Origin: Zingiber officinale
Taxonomy: Eukaryota; Streptophyta; Magnoliopsida; Zingiberales; Zingiberaceae
DNA length: 64,000 nucleotides
NCBI RefSeq assembly: GCF_018446385.1
Contig: NC_055986.1
Coordinates: forward strand, 29,013,593-29,077,592
Direction: 5' to 3'
Part shown: positions 34,297 to 64,000 of the stretch, in pieces
Layout: each line of letters begins with the position of its first letter
How positions within the stretch are numbered: the first letter of the stretch is position 1
Notes under the pieces: model-generated
The model's database searches: none
What the model saw: the letters and a program-made list of their open reading frames with translations, nothing else
What the model was told of the DNA's origin: nothing
Program-made: the position numbers and the translations under genes

Positions 34297-37200
34297 TTAT
34301 GCGGGCACGTTTGATTCTGATTTTGATTGATGATCATAGTTCTCGACCACCGCAGCTACAGTTACGGCAGCTAATGATAACGCCTGAGCGTGCAACCTGC
34401 AAGTTTTAGGAACAAAACGGCAACAAGAAAAGATGACATAGAATTCCATGGTTAACAGTTCGCAAGTTACAGAAACAAATATAGATTCAGCCAAGTTTAG
34501 ACTTGATGTAATCCAACATTTAGGGGTTAGTTAACTTAGACGGATAAATACCAGAATAATGTATGAAGTAAAAAACATAATCATCACCAATTGTTGACCA
34601 ATAAGGGTTAAGAAACTTGAAAGGTTTACTAAACCTTCTTGATACAAACTTCAAGATATATAGCATATGACCTAGAGCATAAGACTTCCAAATGTTTAGC
34701 ACTTTGTCCCAAGCAGACTACTGCTTCTTTCTTGCAAATGGACACCAAATTAAGTATTTGACACACTTATCAGATATTTAGGACAAATTTGCAGTGTGTA
34801 TAAGCAAAATGATGAAGAGTAAGGCAAGATTCTGGATTATCTAGAAACAAAGTTAACAGGGTTGGATGTTGTAGCCATGACCTATTCCAATTACTTAAAG
34901 AAAGTCATGCGTTGAGATGAGTAAGAAAACTGATAAGCCTGAAAGTAGGGAGGCAGAAGTTTGAAGGATAATTCTCTGACAAAATCATGTAGGAATATAT
35001 AGCAAAATTGCCTTTTCCCCTCTGCTTCAATTGGTTGGTAATTTATATAAAACTGTTGGCTTGAATTCTAATAAGTATCAAGTTATAAGTTAAGAGTCCC
35101 ATCCAGAGCTGCAACCTCTATCTATTTTGAACTGGACTATTTCAAGGTAAGTTTTCCATATATTTCATAAATTGTCTCATTATCTTCTTAGATACTTTCC
35201 TCCATGAGGTACTTTTCCATCTTTAGAATAATACATCCTGAGGATGAAATTGTAGATTACATTTTTCTTTGCATGGGAACACAAAGATAGCAGTAGTCGA
35301 CAGTAGTAAATTGAAGCATTTTGACTTTTACAACACTTGAACATGTGACTGATATTTATCACATATTCTGGTGTCTGGACACCTATAATTGGCATCAATG
35401 ACTAAAATTTAGATGAAAAGAACCAAACTCATGATCTAGCTTGGCTTAAGGAAAACAATGCATATAATTTTATTGGCTTCAAAATTAACACTTCAGAATC
35501 CGTTCTACAACCTAAAATACCTTACCGAAACTCTCACAACTATATATACTCAAGGTATTTTCATCACTCCAGAAATATGATTTTACAGAAAACTTTTTAA
35601 GAAAAGCCTCGTAAGCACATTTCTCTTTACACTAATCTTCAACTTATTTTACAAAATTTTGTTATTCAAGAAAGAGAGAAAATGTTTGTTGGTGCAAAAT
35701 CTCCTGAGTCAGCTTGACCAGGTTGACTAAGCTTGAGTTGGCTCAAGCTTGAGTCTTGATGTTTGGCTTTCGATGTTTGAGAATATAGAGAGATTGCAGA
35801 TACGATCGTCCGATTGGGAAGATTGTTGGAGCAATTCCCCTCTAGTCAAGGTTTGACCAATCTGATGTAAAGAAGAGTAGGTCTGTTCAACCGGTCGATT
35901 AATCGGTTTACCAGTTTATCGGTTCCGGTTTATCATGGTTTATTTAAAACCGATTAACCGACCGGTATCTTACCGGTTCCGGTTGAACCGGTTCCGGTCG
36001 GTTAACCGGTTCCAACCGAGAACCGATAAAAACTATTGGACTTGGATAAGTTGACTTAGTGAAGTGGGTTATTGGGTTATTGGGCTTTTTTTTCACAAAC
36101 TAATTAATTAAAGGTCCAACTAAAAATTCTCTAAAGAAATTATATTCTTATCGATCAGCTACAGAACAAATGTTTAGGCCGAGCTGAAAAATATAAATCA
36201 TGCTCTTTAGTATATGTAACATACTCCCACGAAGAAATCTTCCAAATTGTCACTGATAGTAGGCGGCCAGCATCTTCTAGGTGCTAGTTCCCACAAGTCA
36301 GAATTGCATACAGAAGTTGCGGTTGCATACTAAGAATCATATCGTGTTAGCCTTTAATGAGATAAGCCTTTGAAATTTTAGTAGATACTAGTAGTTTATT
36401 CTAGAACCTATTGCACTGCCGCAACGTGCATTTTCCTTCCCAGGTATTAGTTGTTGCTCAAGACTAGGTCCACTTTGGCACCAAATCCAACTCTTATAAA
36501 CATTTCCAATGGGAAGACTAACTCGTCCAGATATCTATAATATCAAGCAAAACAACTAATTGGAAAACTTGGCTTCCTACCTTCTTCTCAATTATGTTTA
36601 AGCTTTGAAATCACTGCCCGACTGTCAACTGATAATATCCATGTGTTATTATCATCAGATTAATCCATGATGAACCTTGCCATCAAATTGATGTACGTTT
36701 CAGTGCAAATATGATTGCCAACCTTTGAATAAGTAAAAGAAATTCACAGGCTACTTGTTAATTGTTCCCAGTTTTACCGATTTACCGGTTAAACCGGTAA
36801 AAAAAATCCAAAACCGGGAATCAACCGGTAAACCGGTTAAAACCGGTTAACTGAAACCGGTAAGCTACCGGTTCCGGTCCGATTTTCGGTTTGCCGATTT
36901 TTTTGCACAGCCTTAAAGAAGAGTCAAGTAGGTCAAAGGGTTGACCGGATACTTGACTGGGAAAGTCGTAACTGGAGGTTAGGCAAAGAGAAATCCTGGT
37001 GAGTCAAGGCAGGTGAAAGACCTAGTGAGTGAAGCTAGGCAGTTGGAAAATCCTAGTGAGTGAAGCCAAGTGAAAAACCTAGTGAGTGAAGCTAGGTGAA
37101 AGTCCTAGTAAGTGAAGCTAGGCATATGAAAAGTCCTAGTGAGTGAAACTAGACAGATAGAAAAACCTGGTGAGTGAAGTCGGGCACGTGGAGATCCAGG

Positions 37201-39005
37201 TGGATCAAGGTTGACCGGACACCTGGTGTTGGAAAGCCCAAGTAGGTCAAAGGATTGACCGGATACTTGGCACGAGGAAATCCAGATAGGTCAAGGATGA
37301 CCGGACATCTAGTGGAAGTCTAAGTGGATCAAAAGATTGACCGGACATCTTCATCAGCAGTCAAAATTGACCGGATGCTAGGCATGAGGAATTCCAACAT
37401 GTCACAGTTGACTGGATGTTGAATTTGGGGATCTTAGACTTGATTTAAGCAAGTAAAAGGGAAGTCAATCGATCAACATTGAGAGTCTGAATCGTGGGCA
37501 CAGAAGCCTTCCTAATCGATCTGTCGATCGATTGGGGAGCTAAAAATCACGCAAGTCGCGATAAAGGCTGAATCGATCAGCTGATCGATTCAGGCCTTCT
37601 CCAACAGAGCGCAGAGGCGCTCTGAATCGATCATCCAATCGATTCAAGTCTCCCCAATCGATTGGGATGTGACCGTTGCGAAGGAAGCATCAAGTTTAAA
37701 GTCATCTTCCTCGCAGCGCCTCAATAACTCTCTACGCTCTCCTCTCTCACGATTCTCACAGGTTCTCGCCAGTTCTTGAAGCTTATTGGAGAAAAGTGTT
37801 GCTGCACTTCCAAGATCAAGAGACGTTCCACACAAGCAAGAAGAAAAGCAAGCTAGGGTTTCTTCATTGTAAATCTTGTAAGATTTGATATTGTATTACC
37901 TTGTATTTCTTTCTTCTTGTATATCTTTGTGTGCGAGTTTGTACGAGGCTTCTCCGCCTCCGGTAGTTACCGAGAAGGAGTTATTTCATAGTGGATGAGA
38001 GTGAGGACCGAATCCTTGGATTAGTCACCTCTTCTTGAGGTGGATACCAAGTAAATCCCCTATGTTAGCATTGTGAGAGTTTATTGAGTGTTTTCCGCTG
38101 TAACATCATCATCAAAGCAAGCAACCGAAGTGCGACGAGCTATTCAAACCGCATTGTACCTTATATGTGTTGTACAAGTCTCATTTGCCACATAGATACC
38201 TCGACATGTGCATTCAAGCATCATGATACAGCGCACTGCTCATATGCAAAGACCATGGTGCCTTCACTAAATCCAACTATTTACCAAGACATAACGTTAT
38301 AGGGCAATCTAAAATTAAATGTTTCAATATGCAGCTTCCCATTAGAATCCCAACAGCTTCAAGACTATCTTTCTATTTTCTTTTCTCTTTCTCCATGTTT
38401 TGAAAACCTTTTTTGAAACGAATTTTATCAAAAAATTCTAATAATATCACTAACATGCCCCTTGCCAGTCTCGCGGAAGGGGAAATATAAGTCATATGTT
38501 CTTTGACAAGAATCAAAACCAAAAAGGTAAACATTATTTCTTTTCAGCAATTAAACCATAGACATTATTTAATGTTTTTCCAACTAAAAAAATCTTAATT
38601 CTCAAAAAATAAACCCTTGAAACAATCGATTACAATCAGAAGCCGCAATTCCTAGATACTACTCTTTGCGAATAAATAAATTTAAGAATATATAAGCCGA
38701 GGGAAGAAGAAGAAGAAGAAGAGATCAGAGATAACAAACCTCGCGTGGATGAGCTTAACGCTGGTTTTCATGTTAGGGCGAGACCAGTTGTAGGCGATGG
38801 AGCCCGCGATCCCGCTGAGCCAAAGGCAACCTTTTCGCCACAAACAAAACACGATATAAAAAATCATGTCAGATCCAAACCAATCAGATCCCCCTCACCT
38901 ACACACAATCGACAGAAAGAAGGGGAGAGAAGTACCGACTGCTCGAAGCTTGTGCTCCACCACCCATTTCCTCAAAGATTCGAACGAGTTCGGACCTTCC
39001 GCCAT
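34297..39005 (-). CDS. HIG1-domain (hypoxia-induced) mitochondrial membrane protein, 3 exons
   Basis: Exons 38936-39005, 38740-38830 and 34297-34396 join with GT-AG sites and correct phases into an 86-residue protein. The sequence MAEGPNSFESLRKWVVEHK, then AVGCLWLSGIAGSIAYNWS, then RPNMKTSVKLIHARLHAQAL closely follows plant HIGD proteins. HIG1-domain proteins are small inner-mitochondrial-membrane proteins with two helices linked to respiratory complex assembly. Here the helices fall at about residues 24-40 and 54-70. The final residues after ENYDH are short compared with about 95 residues in related plants. The gene is unusual for its 4343-bp second intron (34397-38739), which carries an LTR relic and a hAT-like element. 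The frame is intact. Confidence 0.9.
35687..38145 (+). mobile_element. Sirevirus-like LTR relic in intron 2 of the HIG1-domain gene
   Basis: It begins TGTTGGTGCAAAATCTCC and shows the arrangement of the Sirevirus-like LTR at 3176: repeated GTGAGTGAAGCTAGG (at least six copies, 36995-37180), repeated GTCAAGGTTGACCGGA, AATCGATC palindromes (37455-37665), then TTCTCCGCCTCCGG and TTTTCCGCTG near the end. Similarity fades after GACGAGCTATTC (38145), and no internal region or second LTR follows, so it is a solo or truncated LTR. A 1035-bp hAT-like element sits inside it. Confidence 0.7.
35879..36913. mobile_element. non-autonomous hAT-like element, 1035 bp, with CCGGTT subterminal arrays
   Basis: Ends are AGGTCTGTTCAACC and, reversed, AGGCTGTGCAAAAAAA. 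TAAAGAAGAGT occurs exactly on both sides (35868-35878 and 36914-36924), covering an 8-bp or longer target duplication. Both ends carry dense runs of CCGGTT/AACCGG (about 35888-36025 and 36775-36895). The centre has no transposase frame. It interrupts the LTR relic. Confidence 0.78.
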
Positions 39006-44100: not shown

Positions 44101-47100
44101 GAAGGTCTTCATTGTGCATCCACTCATCGACAACAAGATCTGGAGTTGGATGGCAGCCATTTGAGTAGAGCCAATTTCCTCCCTCTTCAACTTTTCGACA
44201 ATTCGGGCATTGCATCACTCCTTTAGCATTAAAGGCAGAACCAATGCAATCTGAAACAAATAATTTGGCAATGACAATTAGTAAGTCGGCTAAAGTTCTA
44301 GCTGGAAAAGCCAATTTATCATGGCAGGTAATCATCATATTTAGCATAAGAATAATTGTCTGAAAAAAAAAAATAGATGATTCACCTGTGAGCATAAGTT
44401 AACTTCGTCTTTAGTTTAACTTTAAACAGCATGTAATGATAAAAAATTAAGCACACTAAACAGGTTTACGTTATGAAGAGCTAAGGTAGCTGACCTTTAA
44501 ACTCTGAAACTCAGAAAATATTGTAGTCAAAAAGGTATGTTCCAAAGAGTGTGAACATCAGGAATTCAGAGTTGAATGATCAATGGTGGATGTCAACCAA
44601 AACTTAAGAAATTCCAATCGTAGTTAATAAAACCATAGGGTTGGCAATCTGTATTGTCATGATAGGTGTAGACATCTGAATCAGAACTTAAAGGGATAGT
44701 GACAATTCAATTAAATGTGATTCTACATTTTTATATTATGAGAAAAAAAAAAAGAAGAAAGAAACCTCATTAAAGATCAAATAGCACTCATCAAAATTAA
44801 ATCCAATAAATTAAATAAACCTAACCAAAGGGGAGCCTTGGCGCAACGGTAAAGTTGTTGCTTTGTGACCAAAAGGTCACGAATTCGAATCCTGGAAACA
44901 GCCACTTGCAAAAAAAGAGGGTAAGGCTGCGTACAATGGATTCTTCCCCGGAACTCCGCATAGCGAGAGTTTCGTGCACCGGACTGCCCTTTTTAATTTA
45001 AATAAACTCAATCCATCAAAAAGTAAGCCAGCCTATCACATAAATAAATAAATATGAATGTTATAAAAGGATACAAATGCAGAGGCTAGGAAGGATGAAG
45101 TAGAAAAAAAAATGTTGGCCCAAAGAATCAATGGTGAGTGTTCCATTGCTAAAGATAGTCAATGTGAAATGTACTATTGTCATTTCATTTTTTAATTGAA
45201 AGATAATATTTTGAAATTTTTTTATAAGTGAAATATGAACCATATTTTATCGTTGTGAATCAAGATCAATGATACGGGTTATAAGGAGTGGATCCCGTGT
45301 GATAATGTGAAAGGGAATATAAGGAGAAGAGGGAAGAAATAGGGAGGCTCGGATAAGATGAATGAGCTCAATAAGCAAATCTCGGTCGGAAATATAGGGC
45401 CGACTGGGATAAAACTAACGGAGCGCACAATGTAAGTAGGTATATTCGGCAAACAAAGCTCGGCCAAGCATATAGTGTCGGACGAACCCAAATGGGTGAA
45501 GTATTAGCAAGCACACCGCACACCTACACCCAGCAGGGGAGCTTCGATCGAGCATGAAATACCGACCGAGAATATAAGTCCGATCGAGTATATAAGCCCG
45601 ACTGAACTAAAACAGACAAAGGATTAGCGCGTTCAGATACGCCCGAGAGGTTCGACCAAGCATAAAGTACCGGCCGAGTTAAAATAGCAGAGGGTCAATG
45701 AACCTAGGAACGCTTAGCAAGCAAAGCTCCGCTAAGCTTAAAGGCGTGTATCCCTAAGCAATCTCTGTAATCGGTCAAGCGAAGATCGATTGTATATCAT
45801 AAGGCCCAACATGACTCAATAGGCAAAGCCGGAGCAGGCATCAACACAATGTAGGCACAATACACTCGGTAGTAGAAGCCCGGTCGAACATACACATAAC
45901 TCGTTCGGTAATATAGTCTCGGGCGATCAAGCAGGCATACGAACCAAGGTTGTCAGAAGGGGCTCGGCTCAATACGCTCGATAGTAGAAGCCCGGTCGAG
46001 CATACACATAACTCGTTCGGTAATGTAATCTCGGACGATCGAGCCGACATACAAACCAAGGTTGTTAGAGGGGACTCGGCTTGGAAGTATTCGATCGGGC
46101 ATAGGCACAATACGCTTGATAGTAGAATCCCGGTCGAGCATACACATAATTCGTTCGGTAATGTAATCTCGGGCGATCAAGCCGACATACAAACCAAGGT
46201 TGTAAGGGACTCAGCTTGGAAGTATCCAATCGAACATAGGCACAATACGCTCGGTAATACAATCCTGAGCGGGTATATCAACACGCACCTTTATGAGGCT
46301 ATTAGTATGAGATCGACCTGGCAAAATCTAGCCGGGCATAAAGACACTCACGTTTATTAAACCTCATGAACATAGCCAGTAAGGAGTATTATAATTAAAT
46401 ATGAGTGGGGTATGAGAATAATATATGATCATATGATAGTTTGGTTAATTCAGCGGGAAACAGTTTCTAGAAACTTCTGTAAGTGCGCTAGACGACAAAG
46501 AAGGTACATCTGGGGTACAAAAAAGATTTCTTAAACTATTATTGCAGGTACTTACGTCATCTCATAACAAATTCTAACAAACCGGAGTCCACCTCATGAT
46601 CACGGAGGTTATATAAAAAGGGGAATCCTCTCCGTTAGAAATGTACGCAAAACGCCACCGCTGAAACCCTAGTTCCACTTCGGTTTTTACTGTACTTCTT
46701 CTTCCCACTTGGAACCGAGGGGACTGACTTGAGCGTCAGAGGACCCAGCCAGGGATTCCCACCTCGGTCTTAGGTTATTAACGCTTTGTTGGTTGGTTCC
46801 GTAGTGCGCAGGAGGCGACAGCATCCGCCGGAACATCGAGCTGTGGTTTTCTTCATCACGGTGCTCCAATTCGCAGGAGTCTTCCCTAAATCTGCTTTGG
46901 GTTTCTCAAATCTAGCTTCAACCTGCTATTCCCACAAACGGCGCCAAATTTGATCCTGTCTGAAAGCGTAACGAGATGAAGAGCTAGGGACGACAAGCGA
47001 TAACTTTGGAGGAGAGATAGGCAACGACCCCGGGGAAAGCGAATAATAATGGATTTGAGAAAACCAAAACAGATCCCGAAGAAATCCAGTCAAAAGTACC

Positions 47101-50100
47101 TTTTAGCGATGAGAATAGCAGGTTGAAGCTAGATCTGAGAAACCCAAAGCAAATCTAAGGAAGACTCCGGCAAATTGGATCACCGTGATGAAGAAAACCA
47201 CAGCTCGATGTTCCGGCAGATGCTGTCGCCTCCTGCGTACTACGGAACCAACCAACAAAGCGTTAGTGACCTAAGACCGAGGTGGAAATCGCTAACTAGG
47301 TCCTCCGACGCTCAAGTCAGTCCCCTCTGTTCCAAGTGGGAAGAAGAAGAAGTACAGTAAAAACCGAAGTGGAACTAGGGTTTCAACGGTGGCGTTTTGT
47401 GTACCTTGCCAACGGAGAATATTCCCCTTTTTATACCACCTCATATAACCTCCGTGATCATGAGGTGGACCCCGGTTTGTTAGAATTTGTTATGAGATGA
47501 CGTAAGTACCTGCGATAATAGTTTAAGGAATTTTTTTTACCCCAGATGTACCTTCTTTGTCGTCTAGCGCACTTACAGAAGTTTCTAGAAACTGTTTCCC
47601 GCTGAATTAACCAAACTGTCATATGATCATATATTATTCTCATACCCCACTCATATTTAATTATAATACTCCTTACTGGCTATGTTTATGAGGTTTAATA
47701 AACGTGAGTGTCTTTATGCTCGGCCAAATTTTACCAGGCCGATCTCATACTAATAGCCTCATAAAAGTGTGTGTTGATATAACCTTCCGGGATTGTATTA
47801 ACGAGCGTATTGTGTCTATGTCCGATCGGATACTTCCAAGCTGAGTCCCCAACCTTGGTTTGTATGTCGGCTCGATCGCCCGAGATTACATTACCGAACG
47901 AGTTATGTGTATGATCGACCAGGATTCTACTATCGAGTGTATTGTGCCTATGTCCAACCAGCCGAGTCCCCTCTAACAACCTTGGTTTGTATGTCGGCTT
48001 GATCGCTCGAGATTACATTACCGAACGAATTATGTGTATGCTCAACCGAGTTTCTACTATCGAGCGTATTGAGCCGAGCCCCTTCCGACAACCTTGGTTC
48101 GTATGCCTGCTTGATCGCCCGAGACTATATTACCGAACGAGTTATGTGTATGCTCGACCGGGCTTCTACTACCGAGTGTATTGTGCCTACATTGTGTTGA
48201 TGCCCACTCGGGCTTTGCCTATTGAGTCATGTTGGGCCTTATGATATGCAATCGATCTTCGCTTGACCGATTACAGAGCTTGCTTAGGGATACATGCCTT
48301 TAAGTTTAGCGGAGCTTTGCTTGCTAAGCGTTCCTAGGTTCATTGACCCTCTGTTATTTTAACTCGACCAGTACTTTATACTTGGTCGAACCTCTACTGT
48401 CGGGTGTATTTAAGCGCGCTAATCCTTTGTCTGTTTTAGTTCAGTCGGGCTTATATACTCGAACGGACTTATATTCTCAGTCGGTTCATGCTCGACCGAA
48501 GCTCCCCCGCTGGGCGTAGGTGTGCTTGCTAATACTTCACCCATTTGGGTTCGTCCGACACTATTTGCTTGGTCGAGCTTTGTCTGCCGAATATACCTAC
48601 TTACATTGTGCGCTCCATTAGTTTTATCCCAGCCGACTCTATATTTCCAACCGGGATTTGCTTATTGAGCGCATTCATCTTATCCGAGCCTCCCTATTTC
48701 TTCCCTCTTCTCCTAATATTCCCTTTCACATTATTACACGGGATCCACTCCTTATAACCCGTATCAATCAACATGCCCCATTAATTGTTGGTCCCCGTAG
48801 GTATTTTGATGTGATCAACCAAGTTGGTTAGGTCCTGCTTTGTTTGATCCCTGTGTCTGAGTGTGCAGGAGCTTAGGAGCGCAGGAAGTCGAGCGGAAGA
48901 CGCAGCTAGCGAGAAGGACGGCACGGGAAGGGAGCCGACGGGCTTGGTGCGTCCGAAGGACGAGAGAGCTGCGGAAGAGTACTCCGGTGGAGCGGGAAGA
49001 ACGTGCGCGGCGTTCGAGGGACGAGAAGCAGGACGGAAGCCTGCTCGAGGAGAAGGTCGGGAATTGGGTTCGGGTGAGCCCTATTCCGATTGGCCGCAAT
49101 CACCCAAAAAGATCGAAGCGTCGGAAGCCAAAGCGAAGCAAAGAAACAAGCTGGAATTCAAGCTGCCAGCTTGGAGGCGCCTCCAGCTTGAAGGCGCCTC
49201 CAGCTTGAAGGCGCCTTCAGCCTTGTTGAAGGCGCCTTCAACAGGTCAAAACTGACCGTTTGGGCCACGGATAAAGTTTAATCCGCTCACCCATTGGAGG
49301 CGCCTTGGACCCTCGAGATCAGATTTCCAGAGGCTATTTAAAGGCCCCTGGAGCTAGGAATTCAATACAACTCAAGCAATCAATTGTATAATCTTTCCTA
49401 GCAATAGTTCTAAGCCTCAAAGTGTAAAAGGCTTCTCCGCCTTCAGCAAAAGAAGATCTTCTACTGCGCTTTTGTCACTGCCCTGGATTAACAACCCTCT
49501 TGGTTGTAACCAGGTTAAATTCCTGTCTTCTGCTTAATTTCTATTTCTTTATTTGTTATTATTTTACTATTGCTTTTCTGAGTTGAAATCCGAGGAGGGT
49601 ATAGTTTATTTTTGTTTTCAGCAATTCACCCCCCTCTTGCCGGCCTCCGCTGCACCTACAATTGGTATCAGAAGGACTAATCGCCGACTGAAGCACAACG
49701 ATCAAGACAATGGCCGGAGCAAATATTCATCCTCCAAAGTTCGACGGAGATTTCGCCACATGGAAGCGAAAAATAGAGGTATTTTTTAAAACGGATTTTG
49801 ATATTCTTATTACAATGAAATATGGTTTTGCAGCGCCGAAAGATAAAGAAGAAAATACATGGAGCAAGAAGGAGCAAGCCGATTTCGTCGCCAACGGAAA
49901 GGCTGAGTTCCACCTGCTCAGCATTCTGCCACCTCAGGAGGTAAATCGGATCGGAAGCTACGACTCTGCGAAAGATATCTGGGAAAAATTCCTGGAGCTC
50001 CACGAAGGTACCTCCGAAGCGAAGCTAGCAAGGCGCGACATCCTCCGGAACCAGTTGACGAACCTCCGGATGAACCAAGGCGAGAAGGTAGCGCAGCTCC

Positions 50101-53100
50101 AAGCAAGGATCAAAGAGTTGATCACGCAACTAACCAATCTTGGAGAAGAGGTAACGAACCAGGACTCTATCCGGTACGCGCTCAACGCCTTCCCCAGAAC
50201 TCCAGAGTGGACCTCCTTAGTAGATGCGTACTATATCTCTAAGGACCTCGAGGTAAGTACTTTAGAACAATTGTTTTCCACTTTTGAACTTCACGAAACT
50301 CGAGTTTCAGAGCCCAATGGAGTAGAGAAGATCAGTCAAAACATTGCCTTAAAGGCAAAAATGAACAGTTCTGACTCCGAAGCCTCGGTCGACGAATCAG
50401 AAGCGACACTACTGGTAAGACGCTTCAATAAATTTTTTAAATCTAACAAATTTAGATCGCAGAGGCATGAGAGAAAAAGAACGACTCGTTGCTACAACTG
50501 CAACGAAGAAGGGCACATCAAGGATGACTACCTGAAATTGAAGAGCAAGCAAAAGGAGAAGGCAAAGACCAAGTACAAGAAACCAGAATCCTCCAAACAC
50601 AAGAACCTGAAGGCCACTTGGTCAGACTCATCCTCCGAATCAGACGTCGAAGAATTCTCGGGGATAGCTCTAATAGCTAACCATCAGCTGGAAGAAGAGT
50701 CAAGCTCAGAGATGAGTATCGATGAAGGGGGAGGAACATCAGAAGAGGAAAGCTGCAGTGAAGGGGGAGCCTCACCGAGTCAGGTAAGTCAGGTACGTAA
50801 TCTAACCCCGACTCAGTCTTTTCGCTTTATTAAATCTCTTTCTAAAGACTTATTCGAATTAGAAAAAGAAAATAAAGAATTGAAAATGAAATTAGCAAAA
50901 GCATGTCCACTTGAGATGTACGATAGTATAAAATCAGAAAATGATAAATTAAAATTAGAAATTGAAAAATTGAAATCTGATGCATGTTTAAATACAAATA
51001 AATTTCCAAACTCAAAATTAAAAATTTATGGAAAATTGAATTGGTACATTAGAAACCATCAGGGTCAACCTAAAAGAGTACCCAAGAACTATGTACCCCC
51101 GAAATTTTTGAATAACCCTGTAGGAAGGAACCTCTATTGGGTTCCGAAATCTGTGCTAAATTAATTCATTTAAAGCTTACAGTAAGAAAATTAAACTTTG
51201 AATTTCTTTATGGAAGCTTTGTCTAAGGAAGTGGTTGTTGCTCCAATAACCAAGAAGGCATAGTGCCTCGCCACGACCTGGAAGCCGAAATATCGAAATA
51301 AAAATGTTTAATTAACTTTATGATAAAAGCATTAAAATTGGAATTAATTAATGCTTTGAAAATTTTTTAAACATTTCCTTAGAAATTCATCTTTTTTAGA
51401 AAAACATCTCTTGAAAGCTTTGCTTAGAATTTCTTTTCTAAAAATCAATTTTTTACTTAGAAATTATTTTGAAAAATCCAAACAAATTATTGTGGTTAGA
51501 ATTTTTTTACTTAGAATTTTTTTTCCCAAAAACTTCATTTTACTTAGAAATATCTTTGAAATTTCTGTTTTTCTAATTTCATCTTAAATTAGAAATTTTT
51601 CTAACTTAAAATTTATGCTAAATTTTTTTTCTATTATCCCGTTTTTGCTGTCATCAAAGGGGGAGAGAAAGGTACAAGCTTAGAGAAGTACATATTTAGG
51701 GGGAGAAATTTTTTTTTAAAATTAAAAATATTCTTTTTGTAGTTGCAATTTTATTTATTGCAAACTAATGCTTAATATGTGAGTTTAGTAATTTTTTTTT
51801 TAAAATTACTTTTCTGTCTATTTTTACCCTAACTTGAACTTGGGTTGATGCACATCAAAAAGGGGGAGATTGTTGGTCACCGTGAGTATTTTGATGTGAT
51901 CAACCAAGTTGGTTAGGTCCTGCTTTGTTTGATCCCTATGTCTGAGTGTGCAGGAGCTTAGGAGCACAGGAAGTCGAGCGGAAGACGCAGCTAGCGAGAA
52001 GGACGGCACGGGAAGGGAGCCGACAGGCTCGGTGCATCCGAAGGACGAGAGAGCTGCGGAAGAGTACTCCGGTGGAGCGAAAAGAACGTGCGCGACATTC
52101 GAGGGACGAGAGTTGACGAAGCTGCCGAGGAGAAGGCCGAAGTGGGTTCGGTGAGCCCTATTCCGGTTGGCATGATCACCCAAAAGATCAAACGCGTAAG
52201 TCAAAGCGGCAAAGAAGCAAGCGAATTAAGTCGACTGAGGCGCCCATCAGCTCGGGCGCCTTCACTGTTGAAGGCGCCCAACAGTCAAATCGATCACGTT
52301 TGCGCCGCGGATAAAGTTTTATCCGCTCACCCATTGGAGGCGCCTTGGACCCTCGAGATCAGATTTCCAGAGGCTATTTAAAGACCCCTGGAGCTAGGAA
52401 TTCAATACAACTCAAGCAATCAATTGTATAGTCTTTCCTAGCAATAGTTCTAAGCCTCAAAGTGTAAAAGGCTTCTCCGCCTTCAGCAAAAGGAGATCTT
52501 CTACTGCGCTTTTGTCACTGCCCTGGATTAACAACCCTCTTGGTTGTAACCAGGTTAAATTCCTGTCTTCTGCTTAATTTCTATTTCTTTATTTGTTATT
52601 ATTTTATTGTTGCTTTTCTGAGTTGAAATCCGAGGAGGGTATAGTTTATTTTTGTTTTCAGCAATTCACCCCCCTCTTGCCGGCCTCCGCTGCACCTACA
52701 TTAATCATGTTGCGATACAAAATAGAATTGCCTTATTGTAGATATCATATAGAATATTAGAATGTAAAAATTATTCCAAGGTAGAAAACTTTCTAAATTA
52801 TATTACAATTTGTAATTGAATTTAAGATTTGATAGGATTTGCAATTCCACAATAGGAACCATTATTTGATAACCTTTTATCACACCAGTTTGTGTCTCTT
52901 TACAAACTGTGAAAAAAGAAGGGAGAACAGTCATAAGGTGAAAGATAAAAGAAACCTTGGAGAGAATAAGATTGTAGTTATTGAGCTCTAATTGGGAAAT
53001 GAAAATCTGGAAGTTTGATATGGTGAGCCACGGTTTGGAAATGACCAAAAACAACAAGTTTATGAAGAGAAAATGCAACATTTAATCATCATCATGTTGA

Positions 53101-55936
53101 AGTCATCATAAATAAACAAAGGCCCAACACACTCTCAAGTTTTAGCAGTTGCACCAACACCCATCTGCTCTTTTGGAATAGCTTGACATGATATTTAACA
53201 GAATATATCATCACCAAAGATACTAGGAGATAGGCAAAGTGAAGAGTGAATATAGTGCTGACAAGAACAGTTTTTAGTGCAACAAATATAAAATTATAAT
53301 TGTTTGTATGTATCAGATTGCTAATTTTTGGAAAATAACAAAAATGAGAACTACAATTCTACTATCACAAAGTGAGGATACAGAAGACTCCAGTAAAAAG
53401 AATTATATTATCACAGTCTTATGATTTTTGAAAATTTCTAAAAAACATGGCACTAAAGAATTCTTCAACATAAATAATATATAGTATCAAATATGGTATC
53501 CTTTAATTCCAAACATAAGAAATGGAGTTTCAATTCTCATTTCCTCATGCAAAAACAAATATAAAAGTTGGAACTCAGAAAATTAAGAATTATTTACTAA
53601 CATAGAGTTGGAATTCTTTTGTAGCAGTAAATTATATCAAAGAAAACTCAACATGTGCAACCTAGTCTGCACTTTACAATATGGATGTCCAGCTTATTTG
53701 CTTTTGAAGGACAATAAAACAGAAAAATTGGATATAACTTGGAGGTAAATGCAGTAAAAAAATCCTATTATAATGTCCTTAAAGTGCAAGGGCCCTCCCA
53801 TGAAAAAAAAGGTGCCCGATCATAAATTATGAGAGAGAGGTGGTTGCAAAAAGTAGAATTTATGGTCCCCGGTGAAGCCCTCTCCATAGAGCTGAACCCA
53901 CAATAATGCAAGTACAACCTCTTGTGCTTTCTAACATGACCATCCTCATCCTCCTCTCAGACATTGGACCAGGAGTCGTTCCTCCCCACAAGATTGCTAC
54001 CACACTCCTTTTTCCCAGTTTCGCCCTCAACTCCTCCAATCATCCATTTTGAGCAATCAAGAAACCCAACTCTCACAAGGCTTGGTTTCAGCGAGAGAAC
54101 ACATCCCTTCCAGCAGATGCAGCTAATCTTGCTTTGCCATCTCGACCCTCTCCCTCCTCCTCACCGCTGGCACAGCCTCCTCAAGAAGCATTGATAGTAG
54201 TAGAGCAACCAAATTCCAGGACTTATTGATGAGGTAAACAACCCAGGCACTAGCACAGTAAGTGCAGTTGTTTTTTTCTGATTGTACCTAGTAAGAATAT
54301 TTAGATCATTTTTATTGGATATCCTAGCATCATAATCTCAAAGTCTTTTGACTTTGCTATGATCATCTTACTTCAACTGGCATGTTCAATGCACAGACTC
54401 ACCTTATTGATCATTTCATTGTATATCTTGCTTGGTCAAAGGACGGAGCAGTCTAACCTTGGATACCTTTTTCTTATTTATCTGCCAGAATTATCTCCAA
54501 CATCCATTTGCATTATATTGTACAATCTTCTATAATTAGCACCACATGTCCATCTGAACGCCATTTCAGTAGATATTGAGGGGTTTTGCTTCACATTTCT
54601 TTGATATTTTTGTTCACAGAGTTCATCTGATCTAAACAACTTATTATTATTCCTGCTGTTTAGAATATCATCTAGCATTCAGATGCCGCTATCGCTTATT
54701 TAGCTATCTTTCAATAGATTCAAGATTTACAAATTAACTTTTTTGAATCTCCCCTAGCTCTTTTACTGTTTATGTTGTTTAACTTTGTCCCTTTTATATC
54801 TTGTCTAATAAATCAAAATTCAAAACATGACTCTTACTTCTAAAGAGAATAATCAAAGTTTGTTACTGAATTACCAAAGTGCACGCATTTTTTTTTCTCC
54901 TGATGGAATATAGTTTATATCATTTTTTTTAACTGTTGGTCAAGTTTGATTGAAGCGGTATATTAATTGTAGTAATTTTGAATATACGGTGCAACATGAT
55001 TCTTTTTGGTTAAAATTTTTTTCCCATTGTAACTTGAGAACATGAATCTTAAGAAGTAAAATCTCAATTGCGGCATTAGTTTGTCAAAGAAAGAACAGGG
55101 CAGTGGTAGTGGTCAAGTGAAGCTAAAAACCTGTCTGTTGGAATATGATCTTCTAATAGAAAAATAGCATACCAAACTATGGAGAGAGTTTTCTCTGGAA
55201 CAAATCGCGCCCACTTTCTCAATGAGGTGTTACCGGAAACTAAGGAAGAAGTATATATGTTGCTTTGAAATTTTTTTGTGACTGCCCTTCCCTATCTTTC
55301 CTTCCTTTTCCTCTCCCTTACTCCTAATTCCAGAGAATGAACAAACTTAGTGTAAAGAATCAGCAGGAATTCTCACAAACGCAAGCAGCTCATGTAGGAT
55401 GGAAGTACTTGTACGTGTCTCTAATTCATAATAATTTGCCAGATTTGACAGAATCAAAAAATATACATCATAAGAAAAGAGGGGAAAATACAGAAGTAAT
55501 TACTTCTCTTTAGATATTGTATTGCAAACCAAAAATTAACCTTAAGTAGACCACCTAAAAGGCATCTTTCCATCATAAGAAAAGAGGGGAAAATACAGAA
55601 GTAATTACTTCTCTTTAGAAATTTTGTGTTGCAAACCAGAAATTATCCTAAATAGACCACCAAAAAGGCATCTTTCCATCAAATCTCACTGCCTACCATG
55701 TAGAAACACCAGATACCAACGGGGAAAAAACATATATAAGGAGCAGAAACAAAGAAAAAATGAAAGAAGAAAATCATCCAGAGAAACTAACCTAGATGGA
55801 ATTCGTGCCCGCATTGCAGCCGAGCAGTGGCTCGGCCCCCTCTGCTCTTCACGGCCTCAAGGCAGATCGAGCAGGCAACGTCGTGCACGACCTCCTCGCC
55901 TTCTTTTCCTTCCTTAACCAACTCCTCGAGTTCCAT
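41109..55936 (-). CDS. RING-H2 E3 ubiquitin-protein ligase, RFI2-like, 6 exons with an 11.5-kb first intron
   Basis: Exons 55792-55936, 44078-44250, 43759-43817, 42224-42252, 41774-42143 and 41109-41559 join in phase with GT-AG sites into 408 residues. The RING spans residues 22-66: C22-x2-C25, C42-x-H44-x2-H47-x2-C50 and C63-x2-C66. It is split by intron 1 at the codon for Asp49 (HEFHL/DCIG). After the RING come GNWLYSNGCHPTPDLVVDEW, a GHWCPFSGLARI block and a long Pro/Ser/Asn/His-rich tail, the layout of the plant RFI2 group, members of which act in light signalling and flowering. It should pass ubiquitin from an E2 to substrates; substrates cannot be read from the sequence. Start chosen at 55936 (MELEELVKEG); an in-frame ATG at 56008 is possible. 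Confidence 0.85.
42894..43133 (-). mobile_element. tRNA-derived SINE in an intron of the RING gene
   Basis: The insert 42912-43115 is bracketed by an exact 18-bp direct repeat, TATACTATAAGCATTCTA, at 42894-42911 and 43116-43133. On the minus strand it has an A-box-like TAGTTGGTTCATGCAAGGG and a B-box GGGTCGATTCCC. Its 3' part (GATTTACCTCCC) is shared with the SINEs at 18.7-19.1 kb. Confidence 0.78.
44829..44997 (+). mobile_element. Au-type tRNA-derived SINE in intron 1 of the RING gene
   Basis: Begins GGGGAGCCTTGGCGCAACGG (A-box TGGCGCAACGG) and carries the B-box region AATTCGAATCC. It ends in the family's GTGCACCGGACTGCCC followed by a short T run. This is the recognisable body of the Au SINE family, widespread in flowering plants. 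TTAAATAAAC occurs at 44811-44820 and 44998-45007 and may be the target duplication, although nine bases separate it from the 5' end. Confidence 0.88.
45270..46931 (+). repeat. left arm: plus-strand LTR lacking its last 150 bp or so
   Basis: U3 contains tandem repeats of a GTCGAGCATACACATAACTCG / CAAACCAAGGTTGT unit (about 45850-46260, periods of about 118 and 139 bp). A TATA box TTATATAAAAAG lies at 46609-46620 and the conserved GACTTGAGCGTCAGAGGACC near 46725. It breaks at ACCTGCTATTC, directly against the primer-binding site. Confidence 0.82.
46930..46946 (-). other. primer-binding site at the palindrome centre
   Basis: On the minus strand TGGCGCCGTTTGTGGGA follows the LTR end (CTTTCAGACA, 46957) after a ten-base gap, as in Tat-type elements. 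The base after it is already left-arm LTR sequence, so no internal region exists. Confidence 0.82.
46957..48766 (-). repeat. right arm: complete minus-strand Tat-type LTR (1810 bp)
   Basis: Reads TGATACGGG...CTTTCAGACA on the minus strand. It has a TATA box (GGTATAAAAAGGGG, 47425-47438), GACTTGAGCGTCGGAGGACC (about 47305-47325) and a complete U5 ending at 46957, followed by the primer-binding site. Confidence 0.82.
48786..49660 (+). repeat. 5' LTR of the gag-only element (875 bp)
   Basis: Shares start, end and most sequence with 51871-52700. The two differ strongly in the middle (49025-49260 against 52105-52310). There this LTR has several GGCGCCTCCAGCTTGAAGGC units that the other largely lacks. 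Confidence 0.92.
49663..49672 (+). other. primer-binding site of the gag-only element
   Basis: TGGTATCAGA follows the 5' LTR end (CACCTACA) after two bases. It matches the first ten bases of the initiator-Met tRNA type and then diverges (AGG instead of GC). Confidence 0.75.
49710..51164 (+). CDS. retrotransposon gag, DUF4219/UBN2 type, intact frame but altered zinc knuckle
   Basis: 484 residues without a break. The N-terminus (MAGANIHPPKFDGDFATWKR) and core (SYDSAKDIWEKFLELHEGTS, LARRDILRNQLTNLRM, RYALNAFPRTPEWTSLVDAY) are copia UBN2-type gag. A zinc knuckle near residue 262 reads CYNCNEEGHIKDDY, so the fourth ligand of C-x2-C-x4-H-x4-C is Tyr instead of Cys. A Ser/Glu-rich stretch follows, and a coiled coil lies at about residues 370-430. 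Gag would assemble particles around element RNA. It is the only protein of its element and has no pol downstream. It is related to the broken gag at 4969-6600 but clearly a different subfamily. Confidence 0.93.
   Translation: MAGANIHPPKFDGDFATWKRKIEVFFKTDFDILITMKYGFAAPKDKEENTWSKKEQADFVANGKAEFHLLSILPPQEVNRIGSYDSAKDIWEKFLELHEGTSEAKLARRDILRNQLTNLRMNQGEKVAQLQARIKELITQLTNLGEEVTNQDSIRYALNAFPRTPEWTSLVDAYYISKDLEVSTLEQLFSTFELHETRVSEPNGVEKISQNIALKAKMNSSDSEASVDESEATLLVRRFNKFFKSNKFRSQRHERKRTTRCYNCNEEGHIKDDYLKLKSKQKEKAKTKYKKPESSKHKNLKATWSDSSSESDVEEFSGIALIANHQLEEESSSEMSIDEGGGTSEEESCSEGGASPSQVSQVRNLTPTQSFRFIKSLSKDLFELEKENKELKMKLAKACPLEMYDSIKSENDKLKLEIEKLKSDACLNTNKFPNSKLKIYGKLNWYIRNHQGQPKRVPKNYVPPKFLNNPVGRNLYWVPKSVLN
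51165..51870 (+). other. 3' internal region of the gag-only element, with purine tract
   Basis: T-rich non-coding sequence with repeated TTACTTAGAAAT-like words (51410-51600), a GGGGGAGA tract near 51660 and 51699, and the terminal AAAAAGGGGGAGA (about 51857-51869) right before the 3' LTR. No protease or RT motifs. Confidence 0.75.
51871..52700 (+). repeat. 3' LTR of the gag-only element (830 bp)
   Basis: Pair of 48786-49660. Its last 380 bp are almost identical to the 5' LTR; the middle differs by indels and substitutions. Confidence 0.92.
52701..55791 (-). other. remainder of RING-gene intron 1 upstream of the insertions
   Basis: AT-rich sequence with no coding gene. A tandem duplication of about 105 bp lies at 55468-55680. 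No LTR or transposase motif recognised elsewhere. Confidence 0.6.
55468..55680. repeat. tandem duplication, period 105 bp
   Basis: TCATAAGAAAAGAGGGGAAA starts at 55468 and 55573. Both copies continue with ACAGAAGTAATTACTTCTCT, GCAAACCA and AAAGGCATCTTTCCATC. Confidence 0.88.
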
Positions 55937-59601: not shown

Positions 59602-62600
59602 CTAAGGGAACTGGAAGCTCATGTAATCCCTCCTTCCTCCTGCTGGGGGGCTTATGTAAACCCAAAGCAAGGAGATGATACTCGAGAGTAGACCGGACCA
59701 TATAAATACGATCGTCGGCACCTTCCCTCTCCTTCCCATCAGGCCTTTAGCAAACGGATACAGATGGCAAAGAACCCAGAGGCTGAAGGACACACCTCCC
59801 AGAAGCCTGCTCCACTGTGGGAACTGACTGTACATTGCTCTTGCAGTCCCCACGGCTATGGCTATCATGTTCATCATCATAATTGTAATTGGAGGCACCA
59901 TCAAGAAGCTCCACTTCACGACGTAGAGCTCAGCGAAAGCAGCAGCGTCATCGTCGGTCGCAGGTTTTGATGTTAAAGTGAATGATATGTCCACGCCGGC
60001 AATGACCTTCAGCAATCCTTGCAGGACAGCAGCTGGGTGAGCGCTAGTACCTCCAATTAACCAGAACTGCTCATTCCTCCACCACTCGTGCAATGTGATG
60101 CCGGACCACTTGATCTCCAACAATGCGAGCAAGCAGAGAGTAATGGTGATTGCGAGGAGCAGTATCAAAAATGTAACGCTGAGGGATTGAACAATAAACT
60201 GGCCTGTGAATAGAGAGATTGCTGGAAGAATGCAGTACACCAATAGAAAGATTGAAGTGAAGGGGTAGATGCCACAGTTGAAGTAGGCTACTCTTTGCAA
60301 GAACTTCATCCTCCTGCTCGCAAAGATTGCATTGTTTTGGGAGAAGAATATCTCGACTGAACCGGTCGCCCACCGGAGGACTTGATGCAGCCTATCGGTT
60401 AGATTGATTGGAGCTGTCCCTCTGAATGCATCCCTCTTGGTGACGCAGTAGATCGACCTCCACCCTCTGTTGTGCATCCTGTAACCCGTCACAACATCCT
60501 CAGTGACAGAACCATATATCCAGCCAACTCGTTGGCCCCATTCCGTTTTGTCCTCGTAGAAGCAAGATACAACACTGATTGCTTCCGCTACCGTTGCAGC
60601 ATCGAGTGGTTCTCGAGGGACTGCCAGAGAACCGGCAGGTCTGCCTTGTCGAACTCCAGGCATGTCTTGAAGTAGCCTTCCTTGATATTCAGCTATTGGA
60701 ATGGATGCTGCTAAAGTGGCTGAACTACCAAACCTCTTTGGCAACAATGCTGATTCTATATCTAACTCGTCGTTCTCATCATCTGCGATAGGTGGTAATA
60801 TGATGTCCTTTTCGTCGCGATCATGCTTCTTCCCCATTGTAGGTTTCCTCAGGAAAAGTTTAGTCTTCTTCCTTCCAAACCAACCATGGTGTTCGGTGGC
60901 ACGAGGAGGGCTAAACCCATAAAGAGCAGTCCTTCGAAAAATGCAGCCTGTTCCAACATACATTGGACCTTGCAATCCATCCATGGCCCTCATAGTGACA
61001 TCAAAGAACACCAAATTGTTATTAGCATACCTGTCACTAGGGTCAATTCCATCAAACCTCTGAGGAAATTGGACATAGCATATCCTGTCACCACCTCTGT
61101 CAAGCATGAAGCACATCCCTTCTCTTAGAGCCAAGGAATTGTAGATGTAGTGATCACAATCCAGATTCAGAACGAAGGGGCCATTGGACATTATTGCACT
61201 TGTTCTAACCAAAGCGTTCATCGCACCAGCCTTCTTGTTGTGATCATATCCTGGTCTCTTCTCGCGGGAAACATAGACAAGCATTGGAAGTCGGATGTCG
61301 ACATCAGTGGTGTTTATAAGATTAAAACTTTCTTGTTCCACATTTCCAATTACTGGTTCAGGGTTTGGAGGAACTAGCATCACCTATGAATGATAAGATA
61401 TAATGATATCAAATATCTGAAGTTGTAGACAATTATTGAATCGATACAAAGAACAAGAGTGAGGTAATTAAGTAATATTTTACCTGAATTATACCAGCAT
61501 GATCGCCTCTAGAATGATCAGGTGCAGCTGAAAACCATGTCCCAGGCCAGTGTGATCCATCAGACATCCAGGTTGCTTTGACAAACTCAGTCGGTTCCAA
61601 AATGTCGTCTTTCATCTCCATTTGTTTCTTCTTAGATCGTAGCTCTTCGTGTGCATTGTATGCATCAGATCGCCGCCTGATGGATTCAGGCAAAGAATTT
61701 ATTCTTACTTTAAACTCATCATATTCCCTCTTAACCTTCCTCCTCTCTCGAACAAAATCCTGACGGACTTTGTTCTTTAGAAAGTCGCGCTTCTGGCCAA
61801 AGTAGGACTCCGGGTTCCTTGGCTCTATGGCATGCTTTCTGCAGAAGGGAACCCAAATTCTTGCAAAGCTAGCAGTTTCAGCCAGGGCTTCAAATGTCAG
61901 AAGAGAACCTCCATCATCTGATAAGTAACAAGCAAGTTTCTCAACCGGGTAGTCGACTGCAAGGATGGAGAGGATTGTGTTTGCTGTGACTAAAGGCGGT
62001 TCTTTTTCTGGATCAGCTGTCGACACAAATACATCAACTCCGGGAAGATCAGATCGGCCTTTGGGGTTTCTAATGCTCGGGGACTCGAAGCGTTCGTTGA
62101 GGACGGAGAGATCCGTTGCTCTGTTAACTGGACAAAGCTTCTGAAGCTGGTCTAAGAGCCAAGAAAATGCAAACCACACCTCACAAGCTACAGACATTCC
62201 CCATAGCCATATGGCATCATGATTAGGGTGTCGAATCCTCCAAGTAAGGAAAAGGCCAAGGGCAAGAAGGCGAATCACTATGAGCATCCTGAAGAGCAAT
62301 CAGAAATTGTTGAGCAAATTTCATTCTCAATTGTAGAAGCAAATGCTATCTATAGATTCACCGATCAAACAGAAGTGTTATCTAATCATTCGAAAACAAA
62401 ACTTGTTTTTTTAGCAAATTACTGCGTTAATTACCTGTATGGACTGAGAATTGCTTGGGACACCGCATTCTTTCTTGTCAGTGGCCTTCTGCATTTTCCC
62501 TCGAAGTCCGGTGGCTCCTCGAAACCCTTGTACTCAGCTCCGTTGCCGCCGAATCCATCTGTCGGCCACACTGCATTGCCATACCCGTATGTTCCCTTGG

Positions 62601-63381
62601 TCTCGAAGAGCCAACGGTTGTGATCGAACTCCCCTGGCTGGTGCGGTGCTTTCATCGATCTCACCATCGATAGCCTCTTCCCGGACTTGAGATTGAACTC
62701 CGCTATCGAGGTCAAAGGAAGGGTTCTCCCCTCGTCCTCAGAAGCCGAACCCTCACCCTCCTCGTCGATCACGGTCCCGTAAGGCTCCTTGCACCCAGGA
62801 CACAGCCCTCCTCCGTCCCCGGCGCACTCCGAGTAGCAGTCTTTGCAGATCAGGAACCCGCATTCGCACGGCGGTTTTATCCCTTTGAGGAGCGCCTCGC
62901 CGTCGCATCCATTGATCTTGCAGAAGAGCCCAGCGGATTTCGCCACCTGCACGCTTTCGGCCGAGCACTCGATGACGTGGCCGCGGGTCACGCAATTGAA
63001 CCCGCCGGTGAAGATGGTGCCGGAGATGAAGCTTCGGTGAGGCTGAAGCTCAGGCTCGTCGGTCTCTTCCGGCGGAGGTGCCGGCTGGTGGTCCGGGGTC
63101 GGCGGGATGTGGACGGTGTAACGGACGAAGTCGGAGGAGGTGCGTTCATGGCTCTCATCGTTCTCGGCCACGGAGCAGTACCGCGCCCCGCCGCCTGAGA
63201 GGCCGCAGCTGGAAGGCCTGGCGGCAGGGGAGTCAGGTTTGTTGGAGAAAGAGTGGCGCGGGACCGGACTAGTCAAGCCGATGCTCCGGCGGAGGGGTCC
63301 ATCGCCGCCTTCCTTCCCACCAGAGGAGCAGACAGTGATCGTCACCGGGGAAGCGGGTGACGATGCCCGCCGACTCGCCAT
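59602..63381 (-). CDS. CSLD: cellulose synthase-like protein D (CSLD), 3 exons
   Basis: Exons 62435-63381, 61484-62288 and 59602-61383 join with GT-AG sites into 1177 residues, the normal CSLD length. Residues 154-197 form the Cys-rich RING-like zinc region (CKINGC ... [11 protein letters not shown] ... CPGCKEPY). Two membrane helices lie at about 317-333 and 341-360. The GT2 catalytic motifs are complete: DDG (440-442), DCD (659-661), TED (878-880) and QVLRW (918-922). About six helices fill the C-terminus (from about 935). CSLD enzymes are Golgi/plasma-membrane processive glycosyltransferases that make beta-1,4-linked cell-wall glycan in dividing or tip-growing cells. The N-terminus ([39 protein letters not shown]) points to the CSLD5 / rice CSLD4 group. 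Start [13 protein letters not shown] was chosen; an in-frame upstream ATG at 63417 would add 12 residues. No defects seen. Confidence 0.96.
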
Positions 63382-64000
63382 GGATCTTCTCGGAAAGCAA
63401 ACTCGAGACCGAATCACGCAAATAGAAACAAGAAAACGAAGATTTTGGGGGATCGAACGGAAGGAAACAGAGAAGATTGGGAAAAACTACAGGCCGTTGA
63501 AGGAAGAAATGAGCCTGAAATGGGAAAAAAAAACAAAATAAATAAATAAAAAAAGTCGCGCATCTGTAACGGTCGCCGCGGTAGACATTCGGGGACCTCA
63601 ACGTTCGAGAACGGTCCCTGGAACCGCCAACGGCTACTTGCTTTCAACTTTGACCGTCCGATCGCGTCAATCTAGAGTCTGGAGCGTTTATTGTCACCCT
63701 AGAGAAATCGACGCTCGAGTCGTCTTCGGCGCCGAAAATTATGAAATTCGACGGTCAAGATTGATAGATCATCCAACCTCCTGGACAACGGCTATGAAAT
63801 AGAGGATTGTTTGTCAGCTTCTTGTGTTTGCTAGGGTTAGCAATTACTAAATTAAATTAACTGACAGTAATTAAATCATTTGAGATAGCATATTCAAACA
63901 AAATGTGAAATAGGGCAAAGCTAAGACAGTGTAAACACCAAAATTAAAATGAGGGAAAGTCCTCTTCCTTGAGGTGAGGCAAACATCAATATCATAATTG
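63382..64000 (-). promoter_or_regulatory. upstream region of the CSLD gene
   Basis: It probably holds the 5' UTR and promoter on the minus strand. A T-rich run (63525-63553) and GC-richer blocks are visible, but no TATA box could be placed with confidence. No other gene seen to the window end. Confidence 0.4.

Follow-up and report, generated by a model that had tools for sequence, protein, structure and literature searches.

What kind of event leaves two copies of one long terminal repeat (LTR) facing each other in a plant chromosome, both with their unique 3′ (U3) ends outwards and with a single target-site duplication around the pair? The question is raised by an inverted repeat at positions 45270-48766 of the window analysed here, a stretch of 64,000 nucleotides (64 kb) of ginger, Zingiber officinale (contig NC_055986.1, here C1, positions 29,013,593 to 29,077,592). 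The repeat consists of two inverted copies of one Tat-type LTR. A first-pass annotation, made from the letters alone, had described it as a 3.5-kb palindrome inserted as one unit, with a U3 end at each tip, lacking gag and pol and surviving in an intron, and each of these points is borne out below. That annotation gave no mechanism; the location of the junction, at the end of a primer-binding site, suggests one. We propose, with a probability of about 0.7, that the structure is an integrated palindromic dead-end reverse transcript, in which the 3′ end of a strong-stop DNA was mis-primed on the unique 5′ (U5) region of an LTR and two U3 ends were integrated together.

Alignment of the plus strand from 45270 to 46934 with the minus strand from 48766 to 47110 gave 1541 identical positions in 1636 ungapped columns (94.2%), the differences being 95 substitutions (78 transitions and 17 transversions) and nine gaps, with a Kimura two-parameter distance of 0.061. 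These differences are spread along the full length of the arms, at 4.5-9.3% per 200-column block; the divergence of roughly 6% that had been placed near the tips holds for the arms overall and is uniform along them. Both outer ends of the palindrome read TGATACGGG, each being a U3 end, and the LTR starts of four relatives (L041, L043, L044 and L045) coincide with these tips. One of them, the solo LTR L043, is bordered by CCATA on both sides and fixes both LTR ends. The palindrome itself is bordered left and right by the same perfect 5-base-pair (5-bp) target-site duplication, ATCAA, a match expected by chance about once in 840 at the base composition of the intron; separate 5-bp duplications around each arm, as two solo LTRs would have, were not seen. 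No coding interior, whether gag or pol, was found: stop-to-stop frames overlapping the palindrome reach 147 amino acids at most, and of the listed frames within it seven were scanned with Pfam, none reaching the curated cut-off (best, YbgU with 24.6 bits against 27).

Read on the minus strand, the structure runs from a complete LTR (48766 to 46951) through AATT and the 18-nucleotide (18-nt) site TGGCGCCGTTTGTGGGAA directly into the inverted U5, repeat (R) and U3 regions of the second LTR, ending at 45270. The arms do meet at a primer-binding site (46946-46929, minus strand), as had been stated, but not symmetrically: the centre holds a single binding site, and the left LTR is truncated in U5. 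Comparison of the letters locates the switch. The ordinary leader reads TGTGGGAA/CTCT, the inverted U5 reads TGAGAA/TAGC and the palindrome reads TGTGGGAA/TAGC; the change into inverted U5 falls somewhere from nt 15 to nt 18 of the binding site (GAA is common to both partners), nt 18 being the last base of the site. Neither partner of the junction is an LTR terminus. Relatives entered the comparison if their match extends to the spacer end, which gave 20 rows, counting allelic pairs and leaving out L042, the same locus as L012. In 17 of them an 18-nt site matches the complement of the transfer RNA (tRNA) end at 13-17 of its 18 positions and is followed by a leader; the remaining three rows all represent a single locus on C18, whose LTR tail is duplicated. 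The leader of ordinary relatives resembles CTCTCACCTGAA / CTCTCACCTGAATCTGAG after nt 18, where the palindrome has inverted U5. The tRNA 3′-end pattern had 38 exact matches in the genome against none for the reversed control, and five of them were fetched: three are tRNA-Lys(UUU) genes according to ARAGORN and two are retroelement copies. In retroviral reverse transcription, plus-strand strong-stop DNA is expected to end at nt 18, because the next base of the tRNA is the modified A58. Since the junction lies at the end of the binding site, the rearrangement would be tied to the plus-strand strong-stop intermediate and not to a random break.

Table 1. Features of the palindrome and its surroundings (window positions)
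Feature	Position	Strand	Remark
Left target-site duplication, ATCAA	45265..45269		Also at left end of C2 allele
Left arm, LTR from U3 end TGATACGGG via R into U5	45270..46928	+	About 160 nt of U5 missing before LTR end
TATA-like box TATAAAAAGGGG of left LTR, pointing to centre	46612..46623	+	Putative promoter element
Junction, 3-nt overlap (TTC on plus, GAA on minus strand)	46929..46931	+	Common to primer-binding-site end and U5
Primer-binding site TGGCGCCGTTTGTGGGAA, 18 nt	46929..46946	-	17/18 complementary to 3′ end of tRNA-Lys(UUU)
Central 175 nt without mirror partner	46935..47109		Last part of U5, spacer, most of primer-binding site
AATT spacer	46947..46950	-	Between LTR end and primer-binding site
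Right arm, complete 1816-nt LTR, TGATACGGG...ACAGGATCA	46951..48766	-	Both LTR ends also in solo LTR L043
TATA-like box of right LTR, pointing to centre	47424..47435	-	Putative promoter element
Right target-site duplication, ATCAA	48767..48771		Same at right end of C2 allele
Intron of RING-finger gene, 11.5 kb, holding palindrome and copia element	44251..55791	-	GT/AG splice sites; RING domain on joined exons

The LTR search also found a second palindrome, on C2. Its flanks are colinear with the window, of which 14.3-63.9 kb correspond, with interruptions, to C2:33750615-33807656, and it is thus the allele on the homologous chromosome; the multiplying palindromic family that a second copy had suggested was rejected on this ground. 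On C2 the palindrome begins as on C1, next to ATCAA, and its right end, with ATCAACATGCCCCATTAAT, agrees as well; the junction differs only by point changes and the loss of 1 nt in C2, and the C2 left arm is broken by an insertion of about 4.5 kb (L040 8635 to L009 3291). Near its right end, this insertion contains a pair of 187-bp direct repeats (95.7%). The presence of ATCAA on both sides of both alleles supports a single integration, and since the palindrome is inserted on both homologous chromosomes, its insertion predates the divergence of the haplotypes.

In the absence of conversion, divergence between the two arms of a haplotype should equal or exceed that between the alleles of one arm. 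The divergence between left and right arms was 6.0% on C1 and 7.0% on C2, that between alleles 7.1% for the left arms and 7.5% for the right ones, and that of the crosswise pairs 6.6% (C1 left with C2 right) and 7.8% (C1 right with C2 left). On average, the arms of a haplotype are not further apart than alleles are, and their divergence is therefore no safe insertion clock. Among 1552 gap-free columns, the informative sites group the four arms by haplotype in 15 cases, by arm in five and crosswise in five. All 10 sites of the last two kinds are transitions, and three of the 15 by haplotype are transversions. The left-right differences common to both haplotypes, five in number, are not above the five crosswise ones, that is, there is no excess of fixed left-right differences. 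In the tree the arms group by haplotype (support 87/88 and 95/92), and in the approximately unbiased test topologies holding orthologous arms together were rejected (p 0.0065 and 0.019), as were those with crosswise pairs (0.0063 and 0.019). Once a tandem-repeat block was removed, eight sites by haplotype, two by arm and four crosswise were left, and the tree no longer separated the groupings. We take these comparisons as moderate evidence that some arm-to-arm conversion may have occurred, the alternative being an insertion shortly before the haplotype split together with noise. The arms were either nearly identical at birth or homogenised later.

Considering that (i) an LTR with its spacer and 18-nt site is joined to an inverted U5; (ii) one duplication encloses the whole, and (iii) both tips are U3 ends, we infer an origin by mis-priming. 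Plus-strand strong-stop DNA, made of U3-R-U5 and 18 nt from the tRNA primer, would end as usual before A58. Its free 3′ end, GGGAA, would fail to pair with the minus-strand binding site, so that the second strand transfer would not take place, and would mis-pair with TTCTC in the U5 of a plus strand, either its own, by folding back into a loop of about 180 nt, or one belonging to another molecule. That plus strand would then be copied by reverse transcriptase through U5, R and U3 as far as its 5′ end. Completion of the complementary strand is the least certain step; it would be easiest with two plus strands, the partner being trimmed and extended, and two plus strands would also avoid the need to open a closed hairpin. 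In a single concerted reaction, integrase would then link both U3 ends, which are identical, to the target and so generate the ATCAA duplication. Decay in the intron would follow, mostly by C-to-T changes, perhaps with some arm-to-arm copying.

As far as searched, the palindrome is a single locus. When its central region (351 bases) was used as a query, only C1 and its allele on C2 crossed the junction among the best 40 of 510 candidates, which is the outcome of the search for further copies that the first-pass annotation had proposed. A 23-nt junction pattern, allowing up to two mismatches, occurred at 16 places in the genome against two for the reversed control, and it was exact only on C1. 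One mismatch was seen at a single place, on C13, and the fetched sequence proved to be an ordinary LTR; of the 14 places with two mismatches, two are the U5 of the palindrome's own right arms (C1 and C2) and the 12 others were counted by pattern only. The search with the arm scored the best 40 of 4047 candidates, beyond which other palindromes, above all ones with a different junction, could lie. The LTR start had no match in the viral contigs scanned and the binding site none in the prokaryotic genomes scanned, as expected for a plant element.

Several of these observations weigh against the mis-priming origin. It is the sole event of such a kind found within the searches made. The 3-nt overlap leaves the switch point anywhere from nt 15 to 18. 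That the arms were nearly identical when the haplotypes split may be due to later gene conversion and not to a common template. At two loci of another leader type, the binding sites run past the presumed A58 stop. Finally, folding back alone would give a hairpin closed at one end, and to reach a linear duplex with U3 at either end a further, inferred step is required.

The alternative that survives best is that host end joining, at a microhomology, linked two LTR-containing complementary DNA (cDNA) ends, one lying at the 18-nt site and the other broken in U5, and that the product was integrated by its U3 ends. The 3-nt overlap fits microhomology as well as it fits mis-priming, and a duplex with two U3 ends would arise directly, with no hairpin. 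However, nothing else explains the break in U5 that the scheme requires, and it also calls for two short duplexes of LTR only and for two molecules nearly identical to each other; we consider it unlikely. It is very unlikely that two ordinary Tat elements were inserted nearby in opposite orientation, that a later deletion fused the leader of one to the U5 of the other and that ATCAA matches by chance. Neighbouring retrotransposons do rearrange often, 220 other recombination events and 20 recombinant complexes having been counted in about 7 Mb (PMC1950507), but here the 5-bp match would have to be fortuitous and the breakpoint would have to fall no more than 3 nt from where the binding site ends. 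Moreover, the four arms form one clade (100/100) with no fixed left-right excess, whereas four other LTRs of the family differ by 12.5-16.1% from the arms and by 8.7-16.3% from one another; later gene conversion could mask part of this evidence. Autointegration, in which an LTR end attacks its own cDNA and inverts part of it, is credited with inverted two-LTR forms (PMC4751563), yet it predicts an LTR terminus joined to an internal site and is therefore contradicted by a junction holding no such terminus, so that its chances are slight indeed. Although fold-back reads can yield perfect inverted repeats in long-read assemblies, an assembly or read artefact has a negligible probability, since the arms differ by as many substitutions and gaps as given above and a collapse or fold-back would need to have arisen twice identically, the C2 allele having the same ends and junction together with differences of its own and the extra insertion of about 4.5 kb.

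Three known classes of element were rejected as well. DIRS-type elements have inverted terminal repeats, a tyrosine recombinase gene and no target duplication; here a 5-bp duplication is present and none of the seven frames scanned with Pfam had a match at cut-off. In an ordinary LTR retrotransposon insertion the LTRs are direct, and those of the palindrome are inverted with no interior found. A solo LTR does not have U3 at both ends.

The LTRs are assigned to the Tat lineage of Ty3/gypsy. According to PMC6317226, Tat elements are recognised by gag, reverse transcriptase, RNase H and an extra archaeal-type RNase H between the latter and integrase. The relative L042, the only one examined for domains, carries a related LTR end (86.9%) and the binding site, followed in broken frames by Retrotrans_gag, RVT_1, RT_RNaseH, RVT_3 and Integrase_H2C2, an order in keeping with that definition. 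The palindrome itself carries none of these domains; it does have the hallmarks of a 5-bp duplication, TG...CA ends and a tRNA primer-binding site after the LTR. Another member of the same LTR family has an odd LTR end: at 428-2339 of L044 (C18:37079500-37089400), after an LTR and AATT the final 60 nt of the LTR occur once more, the whole lying between the near-matching flanks TCGTC and CCGTC. Two further loci, L053 (C3:77839910-77840010) and L056 (C21:82416445-82416540), got no tRNA call and look like retroelement leaders whose binding site extends more than 18 nt into the tRNA-Lys sequence, with CCA and AATT coming next, as if the usual stop had been overrun.

The two haplotypes differ by about 7% in the palindrome; outside it, 15 stretches were aligned, and in 14 of them the difference is 1.1-3.8%. 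The fifteenth, a repeat at 36999-38150 common to both haplotypes, differs by 5.9%. Transversions between alleles amount to 42 at 3227 sites in the arms, 163 at 20544 sites in seven flanking stretches and 12 at 1144 sites in the repeat at 37000-38150. When changes confined to a single arm were polarised by majority, 129 of 178 were C to T or G to A; by context, summed over the four arms, they comprise 41 on 200 CG sites, 39 on 133 CHG sites and 49 on 455 CHH sites. This excess fits methylated repeats, and ordinary decay would therefore be enough for the divergence of the palindrome. Hypermutation specific to the palindrome was rejected on the same figures, that is, the 5.9% of the repeat and the prevalence of C-to-T and G-to-A changes.

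The integration of an aberrant cDNA with one duplication is a known kind of event, to which the palindrome most likely belongs. Complex insertions produced in the Poaceae by template switching between R regions (Sabot and Schulman 2007, PMC1950507) contain two interiors and three LTRs, all oriented alike. Like them, the ginger palindrome would be an abnormal product of reverse transcription that entered as a unit; a single 5-bp duplication and outer LTRs resembling each other are further shared features. It differs in having two inverted LTRs, no interior found and a switch at the binding-site end. The solo LTR L043 shares with it the LTR family, the length of the duplication and the lack of an interior, but has one U3 and one U5 end. 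The autointegration products described in PMC4751563, which cites Shoemaker et al. 1980, likewise have inverted LTRs through an error at the cDNA stage; theirs is an integrase junction at an LTR terminus in a circle, whereas the palindrome has a primer-end junction and is integrated. An integrated LTR palindrome with two U3 ends was not described in the titles and abstracts searched; older papers on retroviral DNA were outside that scope, so we do not claim its absence from print.

The locus suggests that an integrase of the Tat group is able to insert DNA having U3 at both ends; it also shows that both haplotypes of a plant can retain a palindrome of 3.5 kb. The signature, consisting of an LTR end, an 18-nt site, a directly inverted U5 and one duplication, is searchable in any plant genome, which makes the frequency of the error measurable. 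Mu killer of maize is reportedly a silencing locus made of an inverted repeat; like it, the palindrome is a long inverted repeat of a transposon end that could give hairpin RNA, although origin and element class differ. A palindromic product accepted by integrase with two U3 ends, surviving long in an intron while gene conversion keeps its arms alike and carrying putative promoters directed inwards, might produce hairpin RNA silencing its own LTR family, an outcome that we regard as improbable.

The host intron, at 44251-55791, belongs to a RING-finger gene. Taken singly, the first exon has a partial RING match below the cut-off and the second exon has no match, while the joined exons match zf-RING_2 above the cut-off. 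A copia element at 48786-52700, with a gag frame and the duplication TTAAT, lies 14 nt to the right of the duplication of the palindrome and is not found on the other haplotype, where the empty site is visible. Its LTRs differ at 32 of 819 sites (3.9%), fewer than the arms of the palindrome; an earlier idea that the copia element is the older of the two, taken from a gapped LTR identity of 89.5%, was dropped for this reason. Upstream of the RING-finger gene, frames at 59602-63486 on the minus strand resemble what we take to be a cellulose-synthase-like gene.

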